Shown here: positions 450 to 36,090 of the stretch, piece by piece
Numbering within the stretch: the first letter of the stretch is position 1
How the letters are laid out: every line of letters starts with the position of its first letter
Source: a virus
DNA: 37,983 nucleotides
IMG/VR virus record: IMGVR_UViG_3300027365_000460
Span: 1 to 37,983 of that record
Reading direction: 5' to 3' (one strand)
Translations under genes and position numbers: made by a program
Notes under the pieces: model-generated
Database searches by the model: none
What the model was told of the DNA's origin: nothing
The model's input: only the letters and a program-made list of their open reading frames with translations

Positions 450-1478
450 TTAATCCTCTCGTTTGAAAGTAACAGAGCCTAAGACTTTGTTTCTGATGCG
501 GTATGAGTCGGCGTATTGCGCGTGGCCTACCCAGCTTACAATGCGCCTCTTTATATAGTCGTGGTCGATGTCTCCGGCGGCGTAAAGACGCGCCATCTTC
601 TTCATCTTTTTATTCATTCGTTTAACGGAATCTTTGCGTATTCGCTTATGAGTTGGCCATGTTCTATAGCCGAGGAAGTCGAGCGCTCTTCCGTTATTTT
701 GGCTGACCGGAAATATCTGTGTTTTATTGTTTAATCGCAGTTTCAAAACATTATTTAAAAACTCAGTAATGGTATTTAAAACCGTTTTTAAATAGCTTTT
801 ATCGTGATGAACAATGACAAAATCATCCATATAGCGAATATACCGATGGATGCGCAATTCGTGCTTAACCATGGCGTCCAGTTCGTGTAGATAAATATTC
901 GCCCACAGCTGACTGGTGAGATTGCCAATGGGCAGTCCTTCCGGCCATGAGCTCATGATGTTTTTGCAAAGGTCTAGTGTTCGCTGGCAAGCTATTTTGC
1001 GGCTTAATATACCGGTTAGCACCTGCTGATTAATCGATGCAAAGTACTTGCTGACATCGGCTTTTAGGCAGTATGCGGTGCCATGCTGGCGCTGTACTTC
1101 GCGCAGCCACTGTTGCGCCTGGGTGCTGCCTTTGTGCATTCCTCTGCCCGGGCGGCAGGCGTAGCTATGGTGTATGAATCGCCGCTCCCAAATCGGCTCT
1201 ATCACGCTGATAAGCGCGTGCTGGGTTACGCGGTCGCGGAACGGTAATGCGGCCACCAGTCGGTGCTTGGGTTCGTGTACGTAGAATTTGCGGTATTGGC
1301 CGGTGCTGTAGGTCTCGTTTATCAGGTGCTCCTGAAGGCGGATTAGGTTGCCTTCCAGGTCTCGTTCAAAGCGCAGTACCTCTGTTCGTTCGCGTTTCCC
1401 GAGGCGCGCTTTTAAGTAGGCGTTATGTAAGTTTTCGAGCTCATAAATGCTCGGGTAAAGGTTCTTGTATGTCTTCAC
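450..1478 (-). CDS. brt: DGR reverse transcriptase (error-prone, Brt-like)
   Basis: This 342-residue reverse transcriptase copies the template repeat RNA into cDNA with mutations at adenines, and the cDNA replaces the variable repeat of the tail gene. Residues from the GTG at 1478: KADVSKYF at 139-146 with catalytic Asp141; GLPIGNLTSQ at 181-190, the IGxxxSQ form of motif 4 typical of DGR enzymes; and YMDDF at 216-220 with the catalytic Asp pair. There is no group II intron maturase domain. I chose GTG 1478 because AAAGGA precedes it at good spacing and the protein then starts like other DGR enzymes. The frame stays open upstream to GTG 1766 through the template repeat, so a longer N-terminus is formally possible. 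avd lies directly upstream, as in the Bordetella phage BPP-1 cassette. Confidence 0.95.
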   Translation of the reverse strand: MKTYKNLYPSIYELENLHNAYLKARLGKRERTEVLRFERDLEGNLIRLQEHLINETYSTGQYRKFYVHEPKHRLVAALPFRDRVTQHALISVIEPIWERRFIHHSYACRPGRGMHKGSTQAQQWLREVQRQHGTAYCLKADVSKYFASINQQVLTGILSRKIACQRTLDLCKNIMSSWPEGLPIGNLTSQLWANIYLHELDAMVKHELRIHRYIRYMDDFVIVHHDKSYLKTVLNTITEFLNNVLKLRLNNKTQIFPVSQNNGRALDFLGYRTWPTHKRIRKDSVKRMNKKMKKMARLYAAGDIDHDYIKRRIVSWVGHAQYADSYRIRNKVLGSVTFKRED

Positions 1479-1643
1479 TTCAAATCCTTTTGACTGCTTA
1501 GGGCGGCAGCCGAAAGCGCTCGGTGCGCCTACTAGCCTACGGCTGCCTGTATATTTTTCACCTTGTGGGTGAGGACTAAGCGCCCTTTTAATAGATGCAC
1601 TGTCAGCGAAGCCGTGGCCGCGCTGCTTCGGGCAATCATTAAG
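1479..1643 (-). ncRNA. DGR RNA spacer downstream of the template repeat
   Basis: The stretch between the template repeat and the reverse transcriptase start corresponds to the spacer part of the DGR RNA, which in BPP-1 folds and primes cDNA synthesis. Here it holds an inverted repeat CGAAGC (near 1607) with GCTTCG (near 1624), giving a possible 6-bp stem. It stays open in the reverse transcriptase frame. The role is inferred from position and from BPP-1, not from a recognised RNA motif. Confidence 0.5.
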
Positions 1644-1757
1644 AGCGGGGCGAAACCCGATATTGCTGTTCGTGTTCGAACGCTCGTTGTTCAAGTTGCG
1701 AGCGGCGAGGCCGGCATTGGAGCCGTTGTTCCAGTTGCCGCCACGAAACGGGAGCCG
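1644..1757 (-). repeat. DGR template repeat (TR), 114 bp
   Basis: This is the donor copy for mutagenic retrohoming. It aligns without gaps to 2188-2301 with 13 differences in 114 bases. On the coding strand 12 of the differences fall on template adenines. The template has 24 adenines, 20 of them in ten Asn codons (AAC/AAT), the usual DGR design that gives wide amino-acid choice without stop codons. The one non-adenine difference is at 1677 (plus C here, A at 2221), silent in a Ser codon. TR lies between avd and the reverse transcriptase, as in BPP-1. Confidence 0.95.
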
Positions 1758-1766
1758 TTGTAGCAC

Positions 1767-2111
1767 TTAGCCCTTTTCCTTCTTAAGCCAGCTTCCGATG
1801 AAGCGGCCAATCTCTGCCAAATGACGACTCCAGACCTCGTATTTCTTGAAGGGAAGATGCCCGAGATCTTTGGCTAGTCGTACTAATCGACGGGTTAACT
1901 CAAGCTCTGCGTCAGCGTCCTGTAGTGTTGTTTTCTTGTGGTAGCGCTTTGATACAACAATCATCAGTCGCAGTAGTCGAAACATGCTCTGCCGGATTTC
2001 AGCGCTCAACACATGTCGCTCCGATTTCGGAAAGTGAGCGAGCGCTTTATATCCGTATTTTATCATCTCTTCGATGCGTTGAATGACGATTAAATCTTGT
2101 TGTACGTGCAT
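1767..2111 (-). CDS. avd: DGR accessory variability determinant (Avd)
   Basis: A 114-residue basic, all-helical protein. Avd forms a pentameric four-helix-bundle barrel that binds the reverse transcriptase and the DGR RNA and is needed for retrohoming. Helical pattern, size, richness in Lys/Arg (for example SKRYHKK and WLKKEKG at the end) and position between the target gene and TR identify it. It starts at ATG 2111; the ribosome site is weak (AAGTGG upstream). Its TAA at 1767-1769 directly abuts the GTG at 1766 that opens the frame through TR. I rely on context and fold pattern rather than a strict sequence motif, because Avd proteins diverge strongly. Confidence 0.88.
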   Translation of the reverse strand: MHVQQDLIVIQRIEEMIKYGYKALAHFPKSERHVLSAEIRQSMFRLLRLMIVVSKRYHKKTTLQDADAELELTRRLVRLAKDLGHLPFKKYEVWSRHLAEIGRFIGSWLKKEKG

Positions 2112-2133
2112 TTTAAAACCACTTAAAAGTAAT

Positions 2134-2151
2134 GCTGCGCTATCGCGCAGC
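2134..2151 (-). repeat. DGR target-site hairpin with GATA tetraloop
   Basis: A perfect 7-bp inverted repeat (GCTGCGC, 2134-2140, with GCGCAGC, 2145-2151) closes a 4-nt loop that reads GATA on the coding strand. DGR targets such as BPP-1 mtd carry a 7-12 bp stem with a GRNA tetraloop just downstream of the variable repeat, which forms a hairpin or cruciform and raises retrohoming. This element fits both rules and lies 24 bp past the target stop, 36 bp past the repeat. It lacks the U-tract of a terminator. Confidence 0.85.
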
Positions 2152-2175
2152 TAACAGGAAACCAAGAGCAAGAAC

Positions 2176-3711
2176 TCATGCGACAAAAGCGGGGCGAAAC
2201 CCGATACTGCTGCTCGTGAGAGAACGCTCGTAGCCCAAGTAGCGAGCGGCGAGGCCGGCACGGGAGCCGTTGTACCAGCTGCCGCCACGAAACGGGAGCC
2301 GCTCGCCTCCCGTTCTGGCGTATAAGCGGCCTTGCGGGGTAATACCGGCAGGTGAGAATAGCAGGCGTTGCAGCAGCTGTGATTCGGTGTAGCCAGCTTC
2401 TTTTGATAGCGCGCCCCAGTCAGTGCTGATAGCGTCTTCACTCGATACGCCTGGGCTGTTTTTCAGCGTGAGGTTTCCGCTTTCGTTGGACAGGTAATGC
2501 CCTTGCGGTACCCAGTTGATTTCGTCCTCGTCAAAGTTGTTGTCGGTGGTGCAATAGACGCGGCCGTCAACCAGTTTAAGTTGGTCGCTCCATTCCCATG
2601 TGTTTCCTGTTAAATCGGCTATACCAAAGGGTGAGTTATCGTGGCGCCATGCTTCGGGTCCCGAGCCAGTCAGTATTCTGGCTGTGCCTGATGTGTCACC
2701 TGCAATACCGCCGTCTTGTCGGCGACCGAGTTCATGGGTCGCGTCATGGGCGCGCCCGTAGTTTGTATTGCCGCGAGGTTCAAATCCGTTAGCCATGCAC
2801 CAGAGTGCTATCGCCGCCCATTCGTGCTCTGACATTAAATGCCAGCCCTGGCCGTTCGCCTGGCACCATGATTTTGCCGTGTCGAAGTTCACGGAGGTGC
2901 GCGGGTCGAGTCCTGGTAGCGAGACGACTTGGCCGTTATGATAATGCGCCTGGAATGCGCCGATGAACACCTCTGATTTCTCCACGCCGTTCACCATAAA
3001 TGCGGTCGCAACACCGGTGCCGAATGGGTCGCCGGCAAAGCCCAAATCTTCATACCGAAATTTGTAGATAGGCACCATGATGCTAGGGTCGCCGTTGGCG
3101 TTATACAGTACTGTGTTCTTGCCTTGCGTTGACAGCTCGACCTGTTTGCGCAGCGTGTCGGGAATGAACGACAGGCCGCCGGGGATTGATACTGACTTAA
3201 TGACGTTACCCGTTGTGCCAAGCCGCTTGTTAAGCTCCGCCGTATCGGGCAAGTTGTCATTAGCGGTGCCGACATCACGAGTCGCTGCGCTTTTCAAAAA
3301 GCCTTTATTGACTGCGTCATCGTTTGCATTGGGTGTGTTTGTTTTTACACGTCCGCCGTCGTCGCGTTTTGCAATTGAATCAGCTGTCGGGTTCACTGAC
3401 TGGCTACCGAACAGCGCTTCTGATGCTTCAATCAGCTGCTTTGCCTGCTCACTCAGCGCAAGGATTGCGCCGGGGTGCAAAACGCCTTTTGCAACTTTTC
3501 CGCTGCCTGAGCCAGCGTCCCAGCTCTCGATGGTTTCAATGGTGTTGACACCCGTATCTGTTGTGTAGGTTCGCTTAACCTCCAGTAGCTGGCCTTCGAT
3601 ATACAGTGACGAGCCGGGTTTTAGTCCTGCGATGTCATCGCCTGTCTGGACTGTGATGAGCGCGCTACCGTTTGTCACGGTGACGCTGCTTGCTCTCCAT
3701 AGGATACTCAT
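2176..3711 (-). CDS. DGR-diversified tail receptor-binding protein (C-type lectin / FGE-like fold)
   Basis: A 511-residue tail protein, the likely receptor binder. Residues 1-75 look like a beta-rich tail-attachment region (SILWRASSVTVTNGSALITV), followed by a helical and linker region (80-210). The C-terminal half resembles the formylglycine-generating-enzyme type of C-type lectin fold: WHLMSEHEWAAIALW, GIADLTGNTWEWSD, and the final GFRPAF. Such folds carry the variable residues in Mtd and other DGR targets. Residues 471-508 are encoded by the variable repeat; compared with the template, nine of ten Asn codons have become Ser, Tyr, Arg, Gly or Leu. The ATG at 3711 overlaps the J-like gene stop by four bases (ATGA), so the two are co-translated parts of one tip module. 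Confidence 0.93.
   Translation of the reverse strand: MSILWRASSVTVTNGSALITVQTGDDIAGLKPGSSLYIEGQLLEVKRTYTTDTGVNTIETIESWDAGSGSGKVAKGVLHPGAILALSEQAKQLIEASEALFGSQSVNPTADSIAKRDDGGRVKTNTPNANDDAVNKGFLKSAATRDVGTANDNLPDTAELNKRLGTTGNVIKSVSIPGGLSFIPDTLRKQVELSTQGKNTVLYNANGDPSIMVPIYKFRYEDLGFAGDPFGTGVATAFMVNGVEKSEVFIGAFQAHYHNGQVVSLPGLDPRTSVNFDTAKSWCQANGQGWHLMSEHEWAAIALWCMANGFEPRGNTNYGRAHDATHELGRRQDGGIAGDTSGTARILTGSGPEAWRHDNSPFGIADLTGNTWEWSDQLKLVDGRVYCTTDNNFDEDEINWVPQGHYLSNESGNLTLKNSPGVSSEDAISTDWGALSKEAGYTESQLLQRLLFSPAGITPQGRLYARTGGERLPFRGGSWYNGSRAGLAARYLGYERSLTSSSIGFRPAFVA
2188..2301 (-). repeat. DGR variable repeat (VR), 114 bp
   Basis: The recipient copy of the template at 1644-1757. Twelve adenine positions differ, all inside Asn codons of the template, giving N to S, Y, R, Y, G, Y, L, S, S. 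The invariant GC-rich end nearest the stop (2188-2203, coding GGGTTTCGCCCCGCT) is the candidate initiation-of-mutagenic-homing (IMH) sequence. Identity ends sharply on both sides. Confidence 0.95.
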
Positions 3712-28275: not shown

Positions 28276-28303
28276 TTAAAGCGTTTTGCTACTTTTTGAA
28301 AGG
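28272..28303 (-). promoter_or_regulatory. Candidate late promoter Plys (copy A of 32-bp repeat)
   Basis: Same 32-bp element as 19725-19756 (30 of 32 identical), with TTTAAT at 28280-28275. It overlaps the last seven codons of the activator gene, so the promoter for the lysis and late operon would be embedded in the end of the gene for its own activator. This mirrors Mu, where Plys follows gene C. It lacks a -35 hexamer. Confidence 0.6.
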
Positions 28304-28713
28304 TCAGGGAAAAGGTTGTGTTGACGGCGTTCGCGCTCTAACTGCCGTTGCTCACGCAAAATGGCGTATATCTGCTGGCTGGTTAAGCTGTACTCGCGTT
28401 GAAGTACATCGATGTTACGGCCATTGTAACGCTGCCAAATATCGACATCGCGCAGGGCTTTTTTCAGTCGCTCATCACGGGGCAAGTAGTACTGACGACC
28501 GCCCATGTGGTGCGCCTGACGTGCGACCAAACGCTTTGCCAGCTTCAGTGCCTTGCTTTCATCCAGCTTAGCAGAGCTTGTCATTTCGTCTTTAAAAATA
28601 CTGACCAGCTCGGCCAATGCGTGCGGCCATGCTGTTGAATCAAGCTCTATATCTTCCGCTTTGCTCAACAATTCATCAAGGTTTTTATCGTCTTCGAACA
28701 TTTCATTCTGCAT
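28276..28713 (-). CDS. mor: Mor/C-family transcription activator
   Basis: A 145-residue activator of middle/late genes. The C-terminal half is the Mor family signature: VARQAHHMGGRQYYLPRDERLKK cut across residues 75-95, then RDVDIWQRYNGRNIDVLQ and helix-turn-helix REYSLTSQQIYAILREQR. The N-terminal half is the acidic dimerisation region. Mor/C dimers bind a dyad upstream of a -10-only promoter and recruit sigma70 polymerase. Only one such gene is present, while Mu has Mor and C. ATG 28713 was chosen for AAGGAG seven bases upstream; it overlaps the GemA end by 11 bases. Confidence 0.93.
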   Translation of the reverse strand: MQNEMFEDDKNLDELLSKAEDIELDSTAWPHALAELVSIFKDEMTSSAKLDESKALKLAKRLVARQAHHMGGRQYYLPRDERLKKALRDVDIWQRYNGRNIDVLQREYSLTSQQIYAILREQRQLERERRQHNLFPDLSKSSKTL

Positions 28714-29263
28714 TTTTACGCTCCTTGTGAGCCTTACGACACGCCTCAAAGACCTCGGTCACCTGTGAGTACGGCAATGGCTCGTCCTTGTCCAAGAGCG
28801 CATAACTATACCCGAATTCGGTGTCTAACCAATTGATCATCAAACGCTTATGCCATTTTTTTAATGACTCAAGCACTTTAAAGGCGCGGTCGTAGCTCAG
28901 CCAGCCAACGTGACGAACCCCTGTCATCCGAAACACCCACTTATCGAGGGCTTCTTCCGAGCCGTCTTTTAACAAGTCATCTTTGGCCGCTTGTATCCAG
29001 ATAGCGCGAATGACCCTAATTTCAGGCCATTTAACCGGCTTTTTGGATGATGGCGACTGACGCTTTTTGCTTTTTTTAGCGCGCTTTTTAAACCCCTTGT
29101 CTTCAAAGTGATTGAGCACCTTTTGCAGCTCCACCACGGTCATGCCTTTGCACGATGTTTTTTGACAAACGCCCTGCAATGCAGCGCGATAGGTCTCGTC
29201 ATCGAGACGCAATTCACGCTTGGCTACGTGGATCAGCTGTATCAGTTTTGCCTTGCTATTCAT
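28703..29263 (-). CDS. gemA: GemA-like regulatory protein (Mu gp16, DUF1018)
   Basis: A 186-residue basic protein of the Mu GemA family, described in Mu as affecting host gene expression and DNA supercoiling. Family signs: LIQLIHVAKRELRLDDETYRAAL near 8-30, CKGMTVVELQKVLNHFEDKGF near 38-58, and a basic linker KKRAKKSKKRQ near 59-69; the C-terminal domain holds GVRHVGWLSYDRAFKVLESLKKWHK. ATG 29263 has GAGGTG upstream, and this ribosome site lies just after the hammerhead ribozyme HHR1. Confidence 0.9.
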   Translation of the reverse strand: MNSKAKLIQLIHVAKRELRLDDETYRAALQGVCQKTSCKGMTVVELQKVLNHFEDKGFKKRAKKSKKRQSPSSKKPVKWPEIRVIRAIWIQAAKDDLLKDGSEEALDKWVFRMTGVRHVGWLSYDRAFKVLESLKKWHKRLMINWLDTEFGYSYALLDKDEPLPYSQVTEVFEACRKAHKERKNAE

Positions 29264-29274
29264 TATTCACCTCG

Positions 29275-29333
29275 GCTGCTCATCAGTGACTGGCAACCAC
29301 GCCAGCCAGACGCCCCCCAGGGCGTTTCGCTTA
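29275..29333 (-). ncRNA. Hammerhead ribozyme HHR1 (type II), upstream of gemA
   Basis: On the minus strand the full hammerhead core is present: GC of stem II, GAA (29328-29326), stem III with the conserved A-U closing pair (ACGCCC 29315-29310 paired with GGGCGT 29325-29320, read on the plus strand), GUC with C17 at 29309, an 8-bp stem I (29308-29301 with 29294-29287, one G-U pair) and CUGAUGA (29286-29280). Stems I and III are closed by loops and stem II is open, so it is type II. Cleavage is predicted between 29309 and 29308. It starts one base after the stop of the 29335 gene and ends before the gemA ribosome site. Stem II is only two clear pairs. Confidence 0.85.
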
Positions 29334-29334
29334 G

Positions 29335-29862
29335 TTAGGTAAGGAATTGAATGTTATTACGAATGAAAACATAGAGCTTTTCGGCTGGTATTTTGGGTAA
29401 GTGCTCGGGTCTTAACTTAAGCATTTGCTCTATGCTACCGGCCACTTCAAAGGCTACTTCCAACTCTGCAACTATCGAAAACAAAGACTCTGCAATAGGT
29501 TGGGGAAGCGTTTCGCCGTCGCAAAACTTCTCTAAATGATAAGCAACATACGAGGCTTTATCTTTTTCCAATTTTCTTCTGAATGCTAAATATCCAGCGT
29601 CTTCGAGAGTATGCTCTTCTTCGCCATAAAGAATGAATACCTCCGAAACGCCGAGCAATGTTATCTCATCCAATACATTGGATACCTCAAATGGAATTTT
29701 TTCCGTGCCTATATCAAAAAATGCTTCCAAAAGAATGCCTTGGTAAAGCATTTCACAAAAATTCTCGTAGTATTCAGGTTTGCCCTTCAAGCCTATTGCT
29801 TCAGCGGTTTGAGCAATTCGACGATCCAAACCATTCCATACGATTCCTTCAGCGCTAATCAT
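29335..29862 (-). CDS. Unrecognised early-region gene flanked by two hammerhead ribozymes
   Basis: A 175-residue acidic soluble protein with no recognised domain: MISAEGIVWNGLDRRIAQ at the start, then helical segments (CEMLYQGILLEAFF, LEVAFEVAGSIEQML) and a hydrophobic beta segment (ITLLGVSEVFILYG). ATG 29862 follows GGAGA at good spacing. The frame runs upstream to 29988 but that part lies in the ribozyme. Its sequence is visibly richer in A+T than neighbours, and hammerhead copies lie on both sides (HHR2 upstream, HHR1 downstream), so it looks like an inserted accessory (moron-like) gene. Host-takeover or defence-related roles are possible but unsupported. Confidence 0.78.
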   Translation of the reverse strand: MISAEGIVWNGLDRRIAQTAEAIGLKGKPEYYENFCEMLYQGILLEAFFDIGTEKIPFEVSNVLDEITLLGVSEVFILYGEEEHTLEDAGYLAFRRKLEKDKASYVAYHLEKFCDGETLPQPIAESLFSIVAELEVAFEVAGSIEQMLKLRPEHLPKIPAEKLYVFIRNNIQFLT

Positions 29863-29894
29863 GTCTGTTCTCCAATTAAAAAAGTAAAGCTTTT

Positions 29895-29954
29895 GGCTGC
29901 TCATCAGTGGCTGGCAACCACGCCAGCCAGACGCCCCGAAGGGCGTTTCGCTTA
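29895..29954 (-). ncRNA. Hammerhead ribozyme HHR2 (type II), between XRE gene and 29335 gene
   Basis: This copy has a perfect core. Minus strand: TAAGC, GAA (29949-29947), stem III ACGCCC-UUCG-GGGCGU, C17 at 29930, perfect 8-bp stem I (29929-29922 with 29915-29908, loop GUGGUU) and CUGAUGA (29907-29901). The TAA of the XRE gene (29954-29952) is the first part of the element. Cleavage is predicted between 29930 and 29929, which would separate the XRE message from the downstream gene. Stem II shows two pairs next to the core plus a possible outer GUAAA/UUUAC helix. Confidence 0.88.
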
Positions 29955-30515
29955 GGTTTTTACGCTGTTTCCGAACACCCAATCCCACACGCGCTTAATG
30001 AGTGGTTGGCGAGTGCGCTCGTGGAGCTTCCGCAAGCAGTCAATGGCAATATTCATATCCCGGGCGCACTCCCAAAGGGTGTTTATTTTTTCTTTGTTTT
30101 CGATGACCTGGGCTTCCAGCAGGTTGGCTTCGGACGGCTTGCTTTCCTGATTATCTTCCGGCTGTCCTGATAACGTGCCGTACAGCTCGATTCTCAGGCT
30201 ATCCTTAACGTCTAGCGCGATACCTTTGGTGCGGGCATCGATGTACTTCAGCGCTTCTTCTGCCGCTTTCCGTAGCGCCTGGTATTTTTCAGTCGGCGTA
30301 TCCTCTAGCAACATTTCGCCTTTACCTGTAATCAACCAGTTGGCGTTAATTCCTAGTTCGATATATTTCCCCAAAACCCTGAACGAAGGCTCCGTTAAGC
30401 CGCGTTCATTTGACTGGTACCCACGCATTGTCATGCCAACGAGCCGAGCGAAATCAGTTTGGTTTAAAGCGGTCCAGGTCCTGACTTTTTTTATGCGATC
30501 GGTTAACTCAGACAT
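29952..30515 (-). CDS. XRE-family regulator related to the phage repressor
   Basis: A 187-residue protein. Residues 1-70 are an XRE helix-turn-helix domain closely like that of the plus-strand repressor: NQTDFARLVGMTMRGYQSNERG against NQTDFAEMVDMSMRGYQANERG (repressor 23-44), and NWLITGKGEMLLED against LWLLTGNGNMMLDK. The rest has no peptidase domain but a coiled coil (about 75-170). It may bind the same operators and antagonise or tune the repressor. ATG 30515 has AGGAGAG upstream. The stop is the first codon of HHR2. Confidence 0.85.
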   Translation of the reverse strand: MSELTDRIKKVRTWTALNQTDFARLVGMTMRGYQSNERGLTEPSFRVLGKYIELGINANWLITGKGEMLLEDTPTEKYQALRKAAEEALKYIDARTKGIALDVKDSLRIELYGTLSGQPEDNQESKPSEANLLEAQVIENKEKINTLWECARDMNIAIDCLRKLHERTRQPLIKRVWDWVFGNSVKT

Positions 30516-31110
30516 GACTACTCTCCTGCTTTATCGGACCATAAAACGAGGTAGTCACACGGCGGTTAACCACTTCCTTGATTTCGTTCAGGTGCTCTTT
30601 AAGCACTTGATGACGACTTAACAGCTCGTCGGTGCCAACCTTTTCCAAGTCGGCTTTGGTCGTCCAGGCGTAAAACTTCATGCTGGAATCGTTGGCCGAC
30701 TCAGCCTGCTTTTGCTCTCGCTCTTTACGCTGAACTTCCTCTGTGATGGGGTTGCTGGCCAATAATGGCTTACGCCACGGGTGCTCCGGTGCAGGTTTGG
30801 ATGATGTTGGCTCCGCTTGCACGGTTTCCGCCTGGATGTCATTGGACTCTGGCTCTTCGGACTCTTGCTGGTTTCCTAACGCCTGCTCTAAGAACTCCTC
30901 ACCATGGGCAATAGCTTCTTTGCCTGCTGGAGTAACCGTGTACTGGCCGTTGCCCAGGCGCTTAACAAAGCAAGCATCCATCAGTTGCACGGCCAGCTCT
31001 TTCCAGTCCGAATACGCCATTACCGGATAGCTTTCACCCCGTGGCTCGATGACTGCCCGTAGGCCGCAGGGTTGCACCTCCTGCAAGGTCTTTAAAAAAT
31101 CGAGTTTCAT
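30508..31110 (-). CDS. Early-region protein of unknown function with winged-helix-like start
   Basis: A 200-residue protein. The N-terminal 70 residues look like a small winged-helix domain (WKELAVQLMDACFVKRLGNG, YTVTPAGKEAIAHG). A Glu/Pro/Ser-rich, probably disordered linker follows (about 80-135), then a helical C-terminus (KADLEKVGTDELLSRHQVLKEHL). It starts after HHR3 with GAGG upstream of ATG 31110 and overlaps the XRE gene by eight bases. No family is recognised. Confidence 0.75.
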   Translation of the reverse strand: MKLDFLKTLQEVQPCGLRAVIEPRGESYPVMAYSDWKELAVQLMDACFVKRLGNGQYTVTPAGKEAIAHGEEFLEQALGNQQESEEPESNDIQAETVQAEPTSSKPAPEHPWRKPLLASNPITEEVQRKEREQKQAESANDSSMKFYAWTTKADLEKVGTDELLSRHQVLKEHLNEIKEVVNRRVTTSFYGPIKQESSHV

Positions 31111-31141
31111 TGTTCTGCCTCGTTGTTTTGGTTCAATGTTT

Positions 31142-31200
31142 GGCTGCTCATCAGTGCCTGGCCGCCACGCCTGACAGACGCCCGCGAACGGGCGTTTCGC
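31142..31200 (-). ncRNA. Hammerhead ribozyme HHR3 (type II), after the DUF3164 gene
   Basis: The most diverged copy keeps every core base. Minus strand: GC, GAA (31198-31196), stem III of seven pairs after the conserved A (A31195-U partner, ACGCCCG-UUCG-CGGGCGU), C17 at 31177, stem I (31176-31169 with 31162-31155, one mismatch and one G-U) and CUGAUGA (31154-31148). The stem III extension by a C-G/G-C pair and changed stem I bases show the structure, not only sequence, is kept. Cleavage is predicted between 31177 and 31176. The TAG of the DUF3164 gene (31202-31200) runs into the element. Confidence 0.85.
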
Positions 31201-31802
31201 TATACCTTGGTAAAATCGACGGAAATAGGCTTGTAATCACCCGCGCTGTCACGCTCGTAAAAGCGCATGTACTCTTTGCTGCCGACCACATTGATGGCAT
31301 CAGAAATGGCGTCCATGGCTTTTTGCCAGCGCTCGTCCTCAATCTCGTAGCGACGCAGTGCCAGCACTTCGCGGGTGTTGATGTTGCCCTCTTTGTCGGT
31401 CTCGAAAACGCGCTCGACCAAGGTTTTAAGCTCGGAGCGGGCATCCTGCGACCAGTCGCGGACACACTCTTTAATGAGTTTTTCCGCCACCTGCAATTCA
31501 GGCCCCAGGGTGATACGGTCCTGAACGGCGACCGATAGCTTGTAACGGCCATCAAATGAATAGATGGTCACGTTGCCTTTTTTGCCGCCAACAGAGGTCT
31601 GGTAGCGCTCGGCTATCATTTCCATGAAGGTGCCAAAGTCGTCGAATAACGCCTTTTTAAAGGCTTTTAAATCGCCGTTTTTCTCTTTGGCTTTGGTGAC
31701 CATTTCGTTCACAAAGTCGTCTTTTAAAATGTCCAACTCGTGGATCTGGTCAATCGGAATCAGACGGCCTTTGGCGTCTTTTTTATACTGCTCTTGTTGC
31801 AT
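31200..31802 (-). CDS. DUF3164 protein
   Basis: A 200-residue protein of the DUF3164 family, common in the early region of Mu-like phages. Signs: DAKGRLIPIDQIHELD near 9-24, AFKKALFDDFGTFMEMIAERYQ near 45-68, then VTIYSFDGRYKLSVAVQDR and a C-terminal MRFYERDSAGDYKPISVDF. Its biochemical role is not established; early expression suggests help to transposition or host takeover. ATG 31802 follows GGGGAAG. Confidence 0.85.
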   Translation of the reverse strand: MQQEQYKKDAKGRLIPIDQIHELDILKDDFVNEMVTKAKEKNGDLKAFKKALFDDFGTFMEMIAERYQTSVGGKKGNVTIYSFDGRYKLSVAVQDRITLGPELQVAEKLIKECVRDWSQDARSELKTLVERVFETDKEGNINTREVLALRRYEIEDERWQKAMDAISDAINVVGSKEYMRFYERDSAGDYKPISVDFTKV

Positions 31803-31812
31803 TGGTCTTCCC

Positions 31813-32079
31813 CTAGTGCACTTGGTCAATGATGCGTTCGTTCAGCCAGCGCACAGCGCAGCCTTCGAACATTCCGGTACGGATTCTGACGAGCTCACCG
31901 CCGCCCCGGCGAATTGATACTTCGGCAGGGCGCTGCGCAAAGCGCACACCCTTGGGTGGTTCAATGGTGATCACCGGCTTGCTGGCCGAGATACACACAT
32001 TGCACACGGTGATATTGAGCGCCTGAAGCTTTTCCACTGCCTGAATTGCAACGGCCCAGTTTTGTTGTTGTTTGGTCAT
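31813..32079 (-). CDS. Small early protein, unknown
   Basis: An 88-residue protein (TKQQQNWAVAIQAVEKLQAL at the start, then a beta-looking VCNVCISASKPVITIEPPKGV and basic SIRRGGGELVRIRTG). It contains two Cys in VCNVC. ATG 32079 follows AAAGGTG and overlaps the upstream stop region. No family is recognised; context is the conserved block of small early genes of Mu-like phages. Confidence 0.72.
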   Translation of the reverse strand: MTKQQQNWAVAIQAVEKLQALNITVCNVCISASKPVITIEPPKGVRFAQRPAEVSIRRGGGELVRIRTGMFEGCAVRWLNERIIDQVH

Positions 32080-33159: not shown

Positions 33160-33870
33160 TTAACGGCGTTGCAACAGGAACAACGGCTCTTTGCCCCAGC
33201 TGCGGCGGTCTACTGCGTCGAGCTTGTTTGCCATGGCAAAACGCTCAATCTTTTCCAGGGCAACGAGTATTTGCCGCATTTCGCCACCGCTCTCGTTGCA
33301 GATGTAGCTGAGCATGTCCTCTTTGATGTCCAGCTCAATTTCGAACAACTCTTTAACCAGCATTTCCATGTCGTCCAGGTCAGCCGGTTGAAACTCGACC
33401 CACTCAGAGATGCGGTTAAACATTTGCTTGCGATGGCTGATGCGACGGGCAATTTGCTCCATGCCAATCAGTACAATTGGCTCTTCGGCGCTATCGTAAA
33501 TGTCGCGAATGGTTTCCATGATGCGGGTGTTATTGACGATATGGTCTGCCTCATCAATAAACAGCGAGCAGTGGTCCATGACCATGCGCTCAATCACCTG
33601 GCCAACCATGTTGGATAGTGGTGGACGTGGTACCTCACCCATCTCCTGCAACACGCGACCCAAGAACGAGCTGGGGGTGTCGGTGGCATAGCAGCGCACA
33701 TAAACGCTGCGGGTTTGGTTGAACATCCAGACAACGGTAGTGGTTTTACCGAAGCCAGAGGGGCCGTGAATCAATCCCAAGCCTGGAATAATTGATGACC
33801 GACTCTGTAAGTTACGTAACAGATTCATTGATTTGTTAACGTTTTTGACTGTAACCACTTTATGTTTCAT
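33160..33870 (-). CDS. B: MuB-like transposition ATPase
   Basis: A 236-residue AAA+ ATPase that binds DNA, selects target sites and stimulates MuA. Walker A GPSGFGKT is at 36-43 and Walker B LFIDEAD at 103-109; sensor-like VLIGMEQI follows near 133 and ISHRKQMFNRISEW near 145. It is shorter than Mu B (312 residues) because it lacks the N-terminal helix-turn-helix, as in D3112-like phages. It lies 39 bases after the transposase gene. Confidence 0.94.
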   Translation of the reverse strand: MKHKVVTVKNVNKSMNLLRNLQSRSSIIPGLGLIHGPSGFGKTTTVVWMFNQTRSVYVRCYATDTPSSFLGRVLQEMGEVPRPPLSNMVGQVIERMVMDHCSLFIDEADHIVNNTRIMETIRDIYDSAEEPIVLIGMEQIARRISHRKQMFNRISEWVEFQPADLDDMEMLVKELFEIELDIKEDMLSYICNESGGEMRQILVALEKIERFAMANKLDAVDRRSWGKEPLFLLQRR

Positions 33871-33909: not shown

Positions 33910-36090
33910 CTAGCCGTTTTTCGCTCGTTTAGCGTGCTCGTAGGTTGCGACTTGACGCCATGCTTTAACCTGCATTTCGCCAACGTCACTCATCATGTAA
34001 TCCTCAACTTTCATTTGTTCTTCTTCGGTTAAACCTTCCTCCAGCTCTTTGTAAATGAGCATTTGAATCAGGTCCGCCTCGGTACGGATGACTTTCTGGC
34101 GACGCTCGCGGATAGGTGCTTCCTGAGTCCTCAATTCCTCTTTCTCGCGCTGCTGCTCGGCGAGCATCTCGCTGATGCTTTTAGCCTCGACGGTGTCTTT
34201 AAATTCAGAGGTTTGCGCTGAGCGTTTAATAGCCGCTTCAATATCGCCAAATGGGTTGGTAGCCTGAACGGGCGCTCTTTCAAAGCCAGTAACGTTTTGC
34301 TTGGCTTGTTTAGCAGCCTCAAGAGGGGCTTTATGCAGGTTTTTAATATCAAACGACTTAGCCTTGGAGTTATGCTCCCTGAGCAGTCCGCGTAGCTTGC
34401 GCTGTCCCTCGGCTCGTGCTTTTTGGAATGGCGCGCGGTCAATTTCATTGCCGACCAACTCTTTGTCGTATGCAACGATGACCTGGCCGGTACCATCCGT
34501 TCCTTTAGGTGTACAAAAAACGCGACCTAAGTTCTCAGGGTCGTAATGAACATCCACTTCGAGGTAAGCAGTGGTCGGATCTTGGAATTCTTCCGCGGCA
34601 TATTCACGGTTGTTCAGCTTAATAGCGCCGCGAGTGACTGACCGCGATCCGGCGTAATTCATACAAACCACAAGCTGACGCTCGTCTACAACACGCTTCT
34701 GATAGCGAGACTCACGGTAAACCTGGTTAGGCGTTTTTTTATTCAGGCCGGAATGAGGCTTGTCGTGGTACATATCGACCCACTGATTGATGATCTCCTG
34801 AAGCTCATAAGACGTCAGGCTGCTTTCAATAATCTCTCCGCCGTTGCGTTTCTTGGCTGCCAGGCGCTGCGCAAAACTCTTAACCGCCTCAATGCGTTTT
34901 CGCTCCGCAACGTTGTGGCCACAAAATTCAGCCATCCATTCCAGGATGGAATGGTTTAACGTTCTGAAAGCCCTCTCGATGAACGATTTTTCCCAACCGG
35001 AGTAGGCATTACTGATGGTTTGCTCGACCTGGAGTCGCTTTAACGCCATTTTTACTGCGTTACTTTTGTAATCAGCACCTTGGTCTGTTTTTACGCAGCC
35101 GCCATCATTTGGCAATCCCCAGTCCATAATCATGTGTTTAAGCAGTGTTAAAATGCTTTCAGAGTTGCTCTGAGGCGCAACAATGACTTTTAATCGGCGC
35201 GTATAAACATCAATCCCCGCAACCAGGTGGAAGCGACCATCCTGCAAAATAACGTCAGCCGGGGTGCTATCTAATTGCCACAAATCGTTAGGGTAGCGAC
35301 CGGTATCATCGCGACTGAATAAGGGGCGGATATAATTGTTGTACCCATCAGGGTCTGTGCTCAGTGCAATTAAAGCGCGGTTATTCTCTACCCAGGGTTT
35401 AATATAACGGCGAATAGATGATGGGCTGGGTACATGCCAATCACGCCCTTCGGTCACCTTTTTGGACGCGATAAGCTGGCGTATTTGTATAGCCTTCGTT
35501 GTCAGGCTCGGACGCTTTAATATCAGGCCTTGAATAAACTCAGCCAGCTCTGGCTGATTGGCGATTTTGTTCTGTTTCCGCTTACGATACTGACCGGTAA
35601 GACCGACAAAACCTTTTTCCTTATAGTCCTTCTCCCAGCGATAAAGCGTGGTATAGCTTATACGGGGCTTAGTTTTTAGCGTATCGGCATTTACTTCGAC
35701 TTCACCACGATTGTATGCCTTGGCAAAGTTTTCGTGAGCCAGCCGGCCTGAGCCGTGCTCTTGCGAATACAGTGACCAGTGGAACAGAATGTCACTAGCT
35801 GCTTTACCACGTGCGATAGCAGCGTCGCTCAAGCCTTCGAAGATCGTTCGGTACTCTTCCGAACTCTTGGTTTGAAGATAATGCGCTTTTACCGTCTCAA
35901 GCGTTTCAACATCGAGAGAGTGCACTAAAATGAACCGTTTTGGTTTTCCGCTACCAACCTTTTTAGGCTCTGTTTCAGCCCAGCCTAGACGCTCTTTTAA
36001 ACGGTAAACCGTTCGCTCTTGCTTGCCGATAATATCGGCCAGTTCAGCTGCGGATATTTCATCAGGGATTAAAGATTGCTCAAGCGTCAT
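33910..36090 (-). CDS. A: MuA-like DDE transposase
   Basis: A 726-residue transposase that pairs and joins the phage ends for integration and replication. An N-terminal DNA-binding part (helix-turn-helix 13-35, further helical DNA-binding segments to about 235) precedes the DDE core: Asp274 in LWQLDSTPAD, Asp336 in CVKTDQGAD and Glu372 in SFIERAFRTLN. A beta-barrel segment (about 470-540) and a basic C-terminal region (about 545-726), which in Mu contacts MuB and ClpX, follow. GGGAGG precedes ATG 36090. All three catalytic residues are intact. Confidence 0.96.
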   Translation of the reverse strand: MTLEQSLIPDEISAAELADIIGKQERTVYRLKERLGWAETEPKKVGSGKPKRFILVHSLDVETLETVKAHYLQTKSSEEYRTIFEGLSDAAIARGKAASDILFHWSLYSQEHGSGRLAHENFAKAYNRGEVEVNADTLKTKPRISYTTLYRWEKDYKEKGFVGLTGQYRKRKQNKIANQPELAEFIQGLILKRPSLTTKAIQIRQLIASKKVTEGRDWHVPSPSSIRRYIKPWVENNRALIALSTDPDGYNNYIRPLFSRDDTGRYPNDLWQLDSTPADVILQDGRFHLVAGIDVYTRRLKVIVAPQSNSESILTLLKHMIMDWGLPNDGGCVKTDQGADYKSNAVKMALKRLQVEQTISNAYSGWEKSFIERAFRTLNHSILEWMAEFCGHNVAERKRIEAVKSFAQRLAAKKRNGGEIIESSLTSYELQEIINQWVDMYHDKPHSGLNKKTPNQVYRESRYQKRVVDERQLVVCMNYAGSRSVTRGAIKLNNREYAAEEFQDPTTAYLEVDVHYDPENLGRVFCTPKGTDGTGQVIVAYDKELVGNEIDRAPFQKARAEGQRKLRGLLREHNSKAKSFDIKNLHKAPLEAAKQAKQNVTGFERAPVQATNPFGDIEAAIKRSAQTSEFKDTVEAKSISEMLAEQQREKEELRTQEAPIRERRQKVIRTEADLIQMLIYKELEEGLTEEEQMKVEDYMMSDVGEMQVKAWRQVATYEHAKRAKNG

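Follow-up and report, generated by a model that had tools for sequence, protein, structure and literature searches.

The DNA analysed here (the window) is an entire viral record from IMG/VR (IMGVR_UViG_3300027365_000460, 37,983 bases), and the early genes mark it as a Mu-like phage. Pfam and PHROGs recognize Ner-like (HTH_35), MuA, MuB, DUF3164, GemA and Mor proteins, and the early region also encodes a MarR-like regulator and a Kil-like protein; this bears out a first-pass annotation, made from the letters alone, that had placed the region in the early operon of a transposable phage. The best genome match is a prophage of Idiomarina aquatica (DUF3164 100% identical), and the host is therefore very likely Idiomarina. 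Within this operon, three ribozymes on one strand (HH1, HH2 and HH3) flank phage genes over 1.93 kb, and they divide the stretch from DUF3164 to gemA into orf200 with a helix-turn-helix regulator gene, a single gene that we call slot gene B, and gemA-mor. The features are:

33910..36090, minus strand: MuA-like transposase (phrog_310, E 4e-82; rve and Mu-transpos_C domains)
33160..33870, minus strand: MuB-like AAA ATPase (phrog_296, E 3.5e-47)
31200..31802, minus strand: DUF3164 gene, whose stop TAG overlaps HH1 (PF11363, E 4e-79; longer frame 31200-31829)
31138..31202, minus strand: HH1, type II hammerhead ribozyme (RF02276, 72.0 bits, E 2.7e-13)
Between 31177 and 31176, minus strand: predicted HH1 cut, from the sequence
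30508..31110, minus strand: orf200, first gene of the HH1-HH2 unit (no significant family)
29952..30515, minus strand: helix-turn-helix regulator gene, second in the HH1-HH2 unit (HTH_3; PHROG transcriptional regulators)
29891..29953, minus strand: HH2, type II hammerhead ribozyme (RF02276, 69.6 bits, E 1.2e-12)
Between 29930 and 29929, minus strand: predicted HH2 cut, from the sequence
29335..29862, minus strand: slot gene B, between HH2 and HH3 (175 aa, orphan)
29270..29332, minus strand: HH3, type II hammerhead ribozyme (RF02276, 66.6 bits, E 7.1e-12)
Between 29309 and 29308, minus strand: predicted HH3 cut, from the sequence
28703..29263, minus strand: gemA, first gene downstream of HH3 (PF06252, E 5e-38)
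28276..28749, minus strand: mor, late transcription activator (PF08765, E 1.5e-27)

The regulator gene matches HTH_3 below the Pfam cut-off (E 6e-4) and PHROG transcriptional regulators at E 5e-8 to 2e-6. Slot gene B gave no significant match in Pfam, PHROG or PADLOC, and the viral scan found no relative; its AlphaFold model, built from three sequences, was poor (pLDDT 63; 37-45 for the other models).

The window also holds a complete diversity-generating retroelement (450-3711, minus strand), in which 12 of the 14 differences between template and variable repeat fall at a template A. Its parts, all on the minus strand, are:

450 to about 1500: reverse transcriptase (RVT_1)
1505-1645: RT-14 RNA (Rfam)
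1641-1757: template repeat
1767-2111: bAvd
2185-2301: variable repeat, at the 3′ end of the target gene
2176-3711: target gene, FGE-sulfatase-type

Three type II hammerhead ribozymes

The identity of HH1, HH2 and HH3 as type II hammerheads is firmly supported. Three such ribozymes had been proposed by the first-pass annotation, and when cmscan was run against Rfam over the whole window, RF02276 (Hammerhead_II) gave exactly three matches, all on the minus strand and all well above the gathering score of 37 bits. Each copy reads, in order, GCGAAA, a stem III hairpin closed by an A-U pair, GUC, a stem I hairpin and CUGAUGA-GC; stem II is therefore the open stem, as expected for type II and as first described. 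Stems I and III are closed in all copies, and stem II consists of two invariant pairs. The invariant core (CUGANGA, GAA, A15.1-U16.1 and H17) is present in 3/3 copies as CUGAUGA, GAA-A and U-C, and the cut sites predicted from the sequence place the 5′-OH ends at 31176, 29929 and 29308, the same positions given in the first-pass annotation. Loop I and the 3′ tail form a pseudoknot that keeps four pairs in each window copy, wobbles included; in the relative L127, the tail of HH2 has lost one pseudoknot pair. Stem I of HH1 contains one A-A mismatch at a position that is A-U in near-identical relatives. In the two Idiomarina genomes searched, RF02276 matches are confined to the prophage.

Patterns of sequence change are those of maintained pairing. 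We aligned 21 ribozyme copies from the window phage and related phages, and 97.7% of the hammerhead and pseudoknot cells are standard pairs (98.7% for the pseudoknot cells). Two-sided changes number 17, compared with 5.4 in shuffles, and when the pairing partners are slid as a control, pairing drops to at most 54%. The upstream cleavage product is predicted to fold, beside the cut, into a hairpin of 6-7 bp with an energy of -10 to -13 kcal/mol; stem I would lie at or adjoining the new 5′ end of the downstream product. Minimum-energy folds of HH1 and HH3 are not hammerheads, but neither the core nor the pseudoknot can be scored by the program, and such folding was set aside as an uninformative test for these two copies. 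The three elements might instead be inactive relics, or plain hairpins that act as terminators or RNase III sites, and the mismatch in stem I of HH1 fits this idea. However, the entire core is intact in every copy, the window family covaries, and a search for intrinsic terminator-like sites at the ribozymes found none on the minus strand; we consider this explanation exceedingly improbable.

Fit between stop codon and ribosome site

All three ribozymes are packed closely against the preceding gene. HH1 overlaps the DUF3164 stop codon (TAG, 31202-31200), such that the G of the stop is also G11.2 of the ribozyme, HH2 follows the stop of the helix-turn-helix regulator gene (TAA, 29954-29952) with no gap, and HH3 begins 4 nt past the stop of slot gene B (TAA, 29337-29335, then CTAA). 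The first-pass annotation had each copy starting at or one base after a stop codon, which describes HH1 and HH2 but not HH3; it also had each copy ending just before the next ribosome site, which is true of HH3, as it continues directly into the GAGGTG of gemA, but not of HH1 and HH2, which end about 15-20 nt ahead of the Shine-Dalgarno.

To place this arrangement among other phages, we combined two independent IMG/VR pattern scans with relatives found via DUF3164, which gave at least 249 loci with at least 305 strict copies. In the stop-codon test, ORFs of at least 60 codons were considered, loci were clustered by upstream sequence, and the second set served as replication. Among the matches listed, 48 of the 90 upstream clusters of set 1 and 30 of 82 in set 2 have a stop codon within -1..+1 of GCGAAAC, compared with only 3 of 393 control GCGAAAC sequences outside ribozymes. 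On the other side, the next start codon is mostly 15-25 nt past the ribozyme core, again among the matches listed. The ribozyme therefore often fills the gap between a stop codon and the following ribosome site.

Such placement could have a regulatory meaning. A terminating ribosome covering GCGAAAC would block folding, and poorly translated transcripts would then be cut preferentially; the stop codon overlaps or abuts this core strand in HH1, in HH2 and in many relatives. However, simple compactness accounts equally well for the tight fit, and in many loci the downstream side is tight too, so that we find cleavage sensitive to translation improbable.

Exchange of genes between ribozymes and a 24-copy array

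The window family constitutes a natural experiment, in which near-identical phages have the ribozymes in common but differ in the gene that these enclose, or lack such a gene altogether; among the relatives is a prophage from the sequenced isolate Idiomarina aquatica SN-14. In L125 and L127, the DUF3164 gene, HH1, HH2, HH3 and gemA are 94-97% identical to those of the window (gemA of L126 is 84% identical), whereas slot gene identity is 51-52% for L125 and L127 (47-52% overall), compared with 48% for shuffled sequence. Homology stops right after HH2 and restarts at HH3. The slot genes of L125 and L127 are remote homologues of slot gene B (28% over 81 aa), and the slot of L126 holds an unrelated gene, phrog_5671, of a family that also lies between two ribozymes in the distant L137. 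In an Idiomarina aquatica prophage (L285), the flanks are 94% identical to the window and the slot gene is absent; a single ribozyme occupies this empty site, with an HH2-like context upstream and an HH3-like context downstream. A second clean empty site is seen when L090 is compared with L216 and L228.

Two observations concern other parts of this region. Idiomarina loihiensis and viral records (L128, L129 and L286) have two ribozymes only and lack slot gene B, and the content between their ribozymes resembles, at the protein level, orf200 and the C-terminus of the helix-turn-helix regulator. In L127 (7052-7612), the regulator has an N-terminal DNA-binding part unlike that of the window and a nearly identical C-terminus, which suggests a swap inside the gene.

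How general is this exchange? Among the matches listed, the content between two ribozymes is replaced in 16 of 33 comparable units and 71 of 614 ordinary genes within 4 kb are replaced or absent, a descriptive comparison of units that are related to one another, from loci with comparable flanks. Single ribozyme junctions are less distinctive: in the listed loci, homology breaks at 0.38 of them, compared with 0.25 at nearby and 0.10 at distant junctions (at ≥90% identity), a modest excess, and among the matches listed, both ends of the replaced segment lie away from ribozymes in 406 of 528 ordered pairs. We rejected the idea that homology breaks as a rule at ribozymes, as the enrichment is only modest, and the claim was therefore narrowed to genes bounded by two ribozymes. 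For these, comparison between phages indicates that the ribozymes are the joints at which gene units are exchanged. A defence or anti-defence role for the slots was considered and dropped: the 90 slot proteins scanned are mostly of unknown families and form no pattern, with two single matches to superinfection exclusion.

At least 184 of the at least 249 loci listed encode one or more Mu-type early proteins, and thus type II ribozymes of this consensus occur largely in Mu-like phages. They are present in 10 of 38 relative records bearing DUF3164; their absence from the other 28 means that the set is dispensable. About 28% of the viral loci listed carry two or more ribozymes, in a sample selected for ribozyme presence. 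The largest set is in IMGVR_UViG_3300017605_000570 (L281; G038:C1:8500-19500), a 57 kb record with terminase, portal, head protease and tail sheath genes, in which 24 RF02276 matches above the cut-off lie on one strand within 7.6 kb; no Mu-type transposition protein was found among the ten large proteins scanned. There is nearly one ribozyme per small gene, and the stop-codon offsets are usually -1, 0 or +1. In an alignment of 21 of these copies, 99.7% of cells are paired and there are 65 two-sided changes against 18, including changes in all eight stem I pairs, together with compensatory changes in the pseudoknot. The copies are therefore individually maintained and are not recent duplicates.

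This covariation bears on the possibility that the ribozymes do cut, but matter mainly in evolution, as hitch-hiking recombinogenic joints that spread with cassettes, with separate translation of the genes making the cutting tolerable. The slot swaps and empty sites, the lack of ribozymes in most DUF3164 relatives and a break enrichment only modestly beyond that of a generally mosaic region are all consistent with this. However, in both the array and the window family each copy has been kept pairing-competent independently, and the fit to stop codon and ribosome site is tight; we consider mere hitch-hiking unlikely.

A model for processing of the early transcript

The explanation we prefer, and think probable, is that the early mRNA is cut by its own three working hammerheads into end-protected units that are also exchangeable cassettes. 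Among possible functions, predicted cutting of this transcript into units has the best support, and separate decay rates for regulators, the purpose proposed in the first-pass annotation, are only one possible consequence. Against the explanation as a whole we count the stem I mismatch of HH1, the minimum-energy folds of HH1 and HH3, the pseudoknot pair lost in L127, the lack of the set in most DUF3164 relatives, the modest excess of homology breaks at single ribozyme junctions and the many replaced segments that end away from ribozymes. We infer that the ribozymes would cut the polycistronic mRNA during or soon after transcription into four units: the promoter-proximal genes (ner, A, B ... 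DUF3164), orf200 with the helix-turn-helix regulator gene (about 1.25 kb), slot gene B (0.62 kb), and gemA with mor. Each upstream unit would end shortly past its stop codon in the 6-7 bp hairpin, with a 2′,3′-cyclic phosphate, and each downstream unit would begin with a 5′-OH and the stem I hairpin. Because only the 2-bp stem II spans the cut and the pseudoknot lies wholly downstream, separation should be fast, and the anatomy of the ribozyme indicates that the cut should be effectively one-way. A hairpin near the 3′ end is expected to slow 3′ exonucleases and a 5′-OH beside a hairpin to slow RNase E, which senses 5′-phosphates; each unit would likely become a separate mRNA with protected ends, uncoupled from the adjacent units.

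The same ends could have another fate. HH2 and HH3 flank one gene, and RtcB joins 5′-OH to 2′,3′-cyclic phosphate ends; RtcB, or the cleavage reaction run in reverse, might thus ligate units excised by flanking ribozymes into mRNAs that are circular or spliced. We regard this as very improbable, since a 2-bp stem II favours product separation and Perreault 2011 (PMC3088659), searching for such RNAs among the products of bacterial tandem hammerheads, detected none.

In the processing model, a uniform joint between stop codon and ribosome site would make units of ribozyme plus gene exchangeable without disturbing their neighbours, and the ribozymes, at ~60 bp, may supply the homology for exchange, gain or loss of units. 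Extending this to phages in general is more tentative, and we would put it at somewhat under an even chance: type II hammerheads may be standard joints of natural plug-in cassettes in phage early operons, with self-cleavage insulating the mRNAs. Recombination within a ribozyme would swap, add or delete units, and the 24-copy phage would be the extreme case, with one-gene units and a ribozyme at nearly every junction. The exchangeable-joint reading is testable in a lysogen. The phage may benefit through stability, independent expression or only recombination modularity. If the model is true, ribozyme joints could serve to locate accessory phage genes, the majority of which have no known function.

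Several known systems resemble parts of this model. In phage T7, host RNase III cuts the early polycistronic RNA between genes and leaves stable ends; in contrast, the window RNA is predicted to cut itself, with 5′-OH and 2′,3′-cyclic phosphate ends and no need of a host enzyme. RiboJ-type hammerhead insulators, which are engineered and placed after promoters in synthetic operons, trim the context upstream of the ribosome site and leave a 5′ hairpin, whereas the window ribozymes are natural, of type II and located between genes; if the units are insulated cassettes, they would be a natural counterpart of such insulators. The boundary or linker sequences of lambdoid phages are short, conserved, lie at module borders and permit exchange, but in the window the shared joint is itself a predicted catalytic RNA.

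Type II hammerheads, their pseudoknot and their clusters flanking prophage genes or blocks were described by Perreault 2011 (PMC3088659), with the proposal that long phage RNA is processed into operon- or gene-length mRNAs. Three tandem sets were cleaved in vitro in that work, and a triple set of Agrobacterium tumefaciens (around ardA) was cut both in vitro and in E. coli (PMC3088659). The window set, of type II, with the loop I-tail pseudoknot and several copies flanking prophage genes, is therefore an instance of an already known arrangement; unlike those clusters, it lies in a Mu-like Idiomarina early operon, between DUF3164 and gemA. The first-pass suggestion that a serial intercistronic set is unusual must be abandoned in view of these clusters (PMC3088659), the share of multi-copy loci and the 24-copy phage. 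A 2017 review (PMC6155905) treats the function of bacterial hammerheads as an open question and notes that they flank small non-conserved ORFs. The terms "stop codon", "cassette" and "recombination" are absent from the main text of Perreault 2011 (PMC3088659), and a non-exhaustive literature search found nothing on ribozymes in Mu-like phages and no prior description of the stop-codon fit, the slot swaps, the empty site or the 24-copy array. What appears to be new here is the stop-codon fit, the swappable genes between ribozymes and the 24-copy array with its strong covariation.

Two further observations concern ribozymes of other phages. In two Acinetobacter prophages (L289 and L290), Hammerhead_II lies just downstream of DUF3164 and has a compensatory pseudoknot variant, in which UCG in loop I and CGA in the tail replace UGG and CCA. 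In several phages, L216, L228 and L090 among them, the tail of the ribozyme is followed by a conserved palindrome, GACCGGGCCCGGTC.
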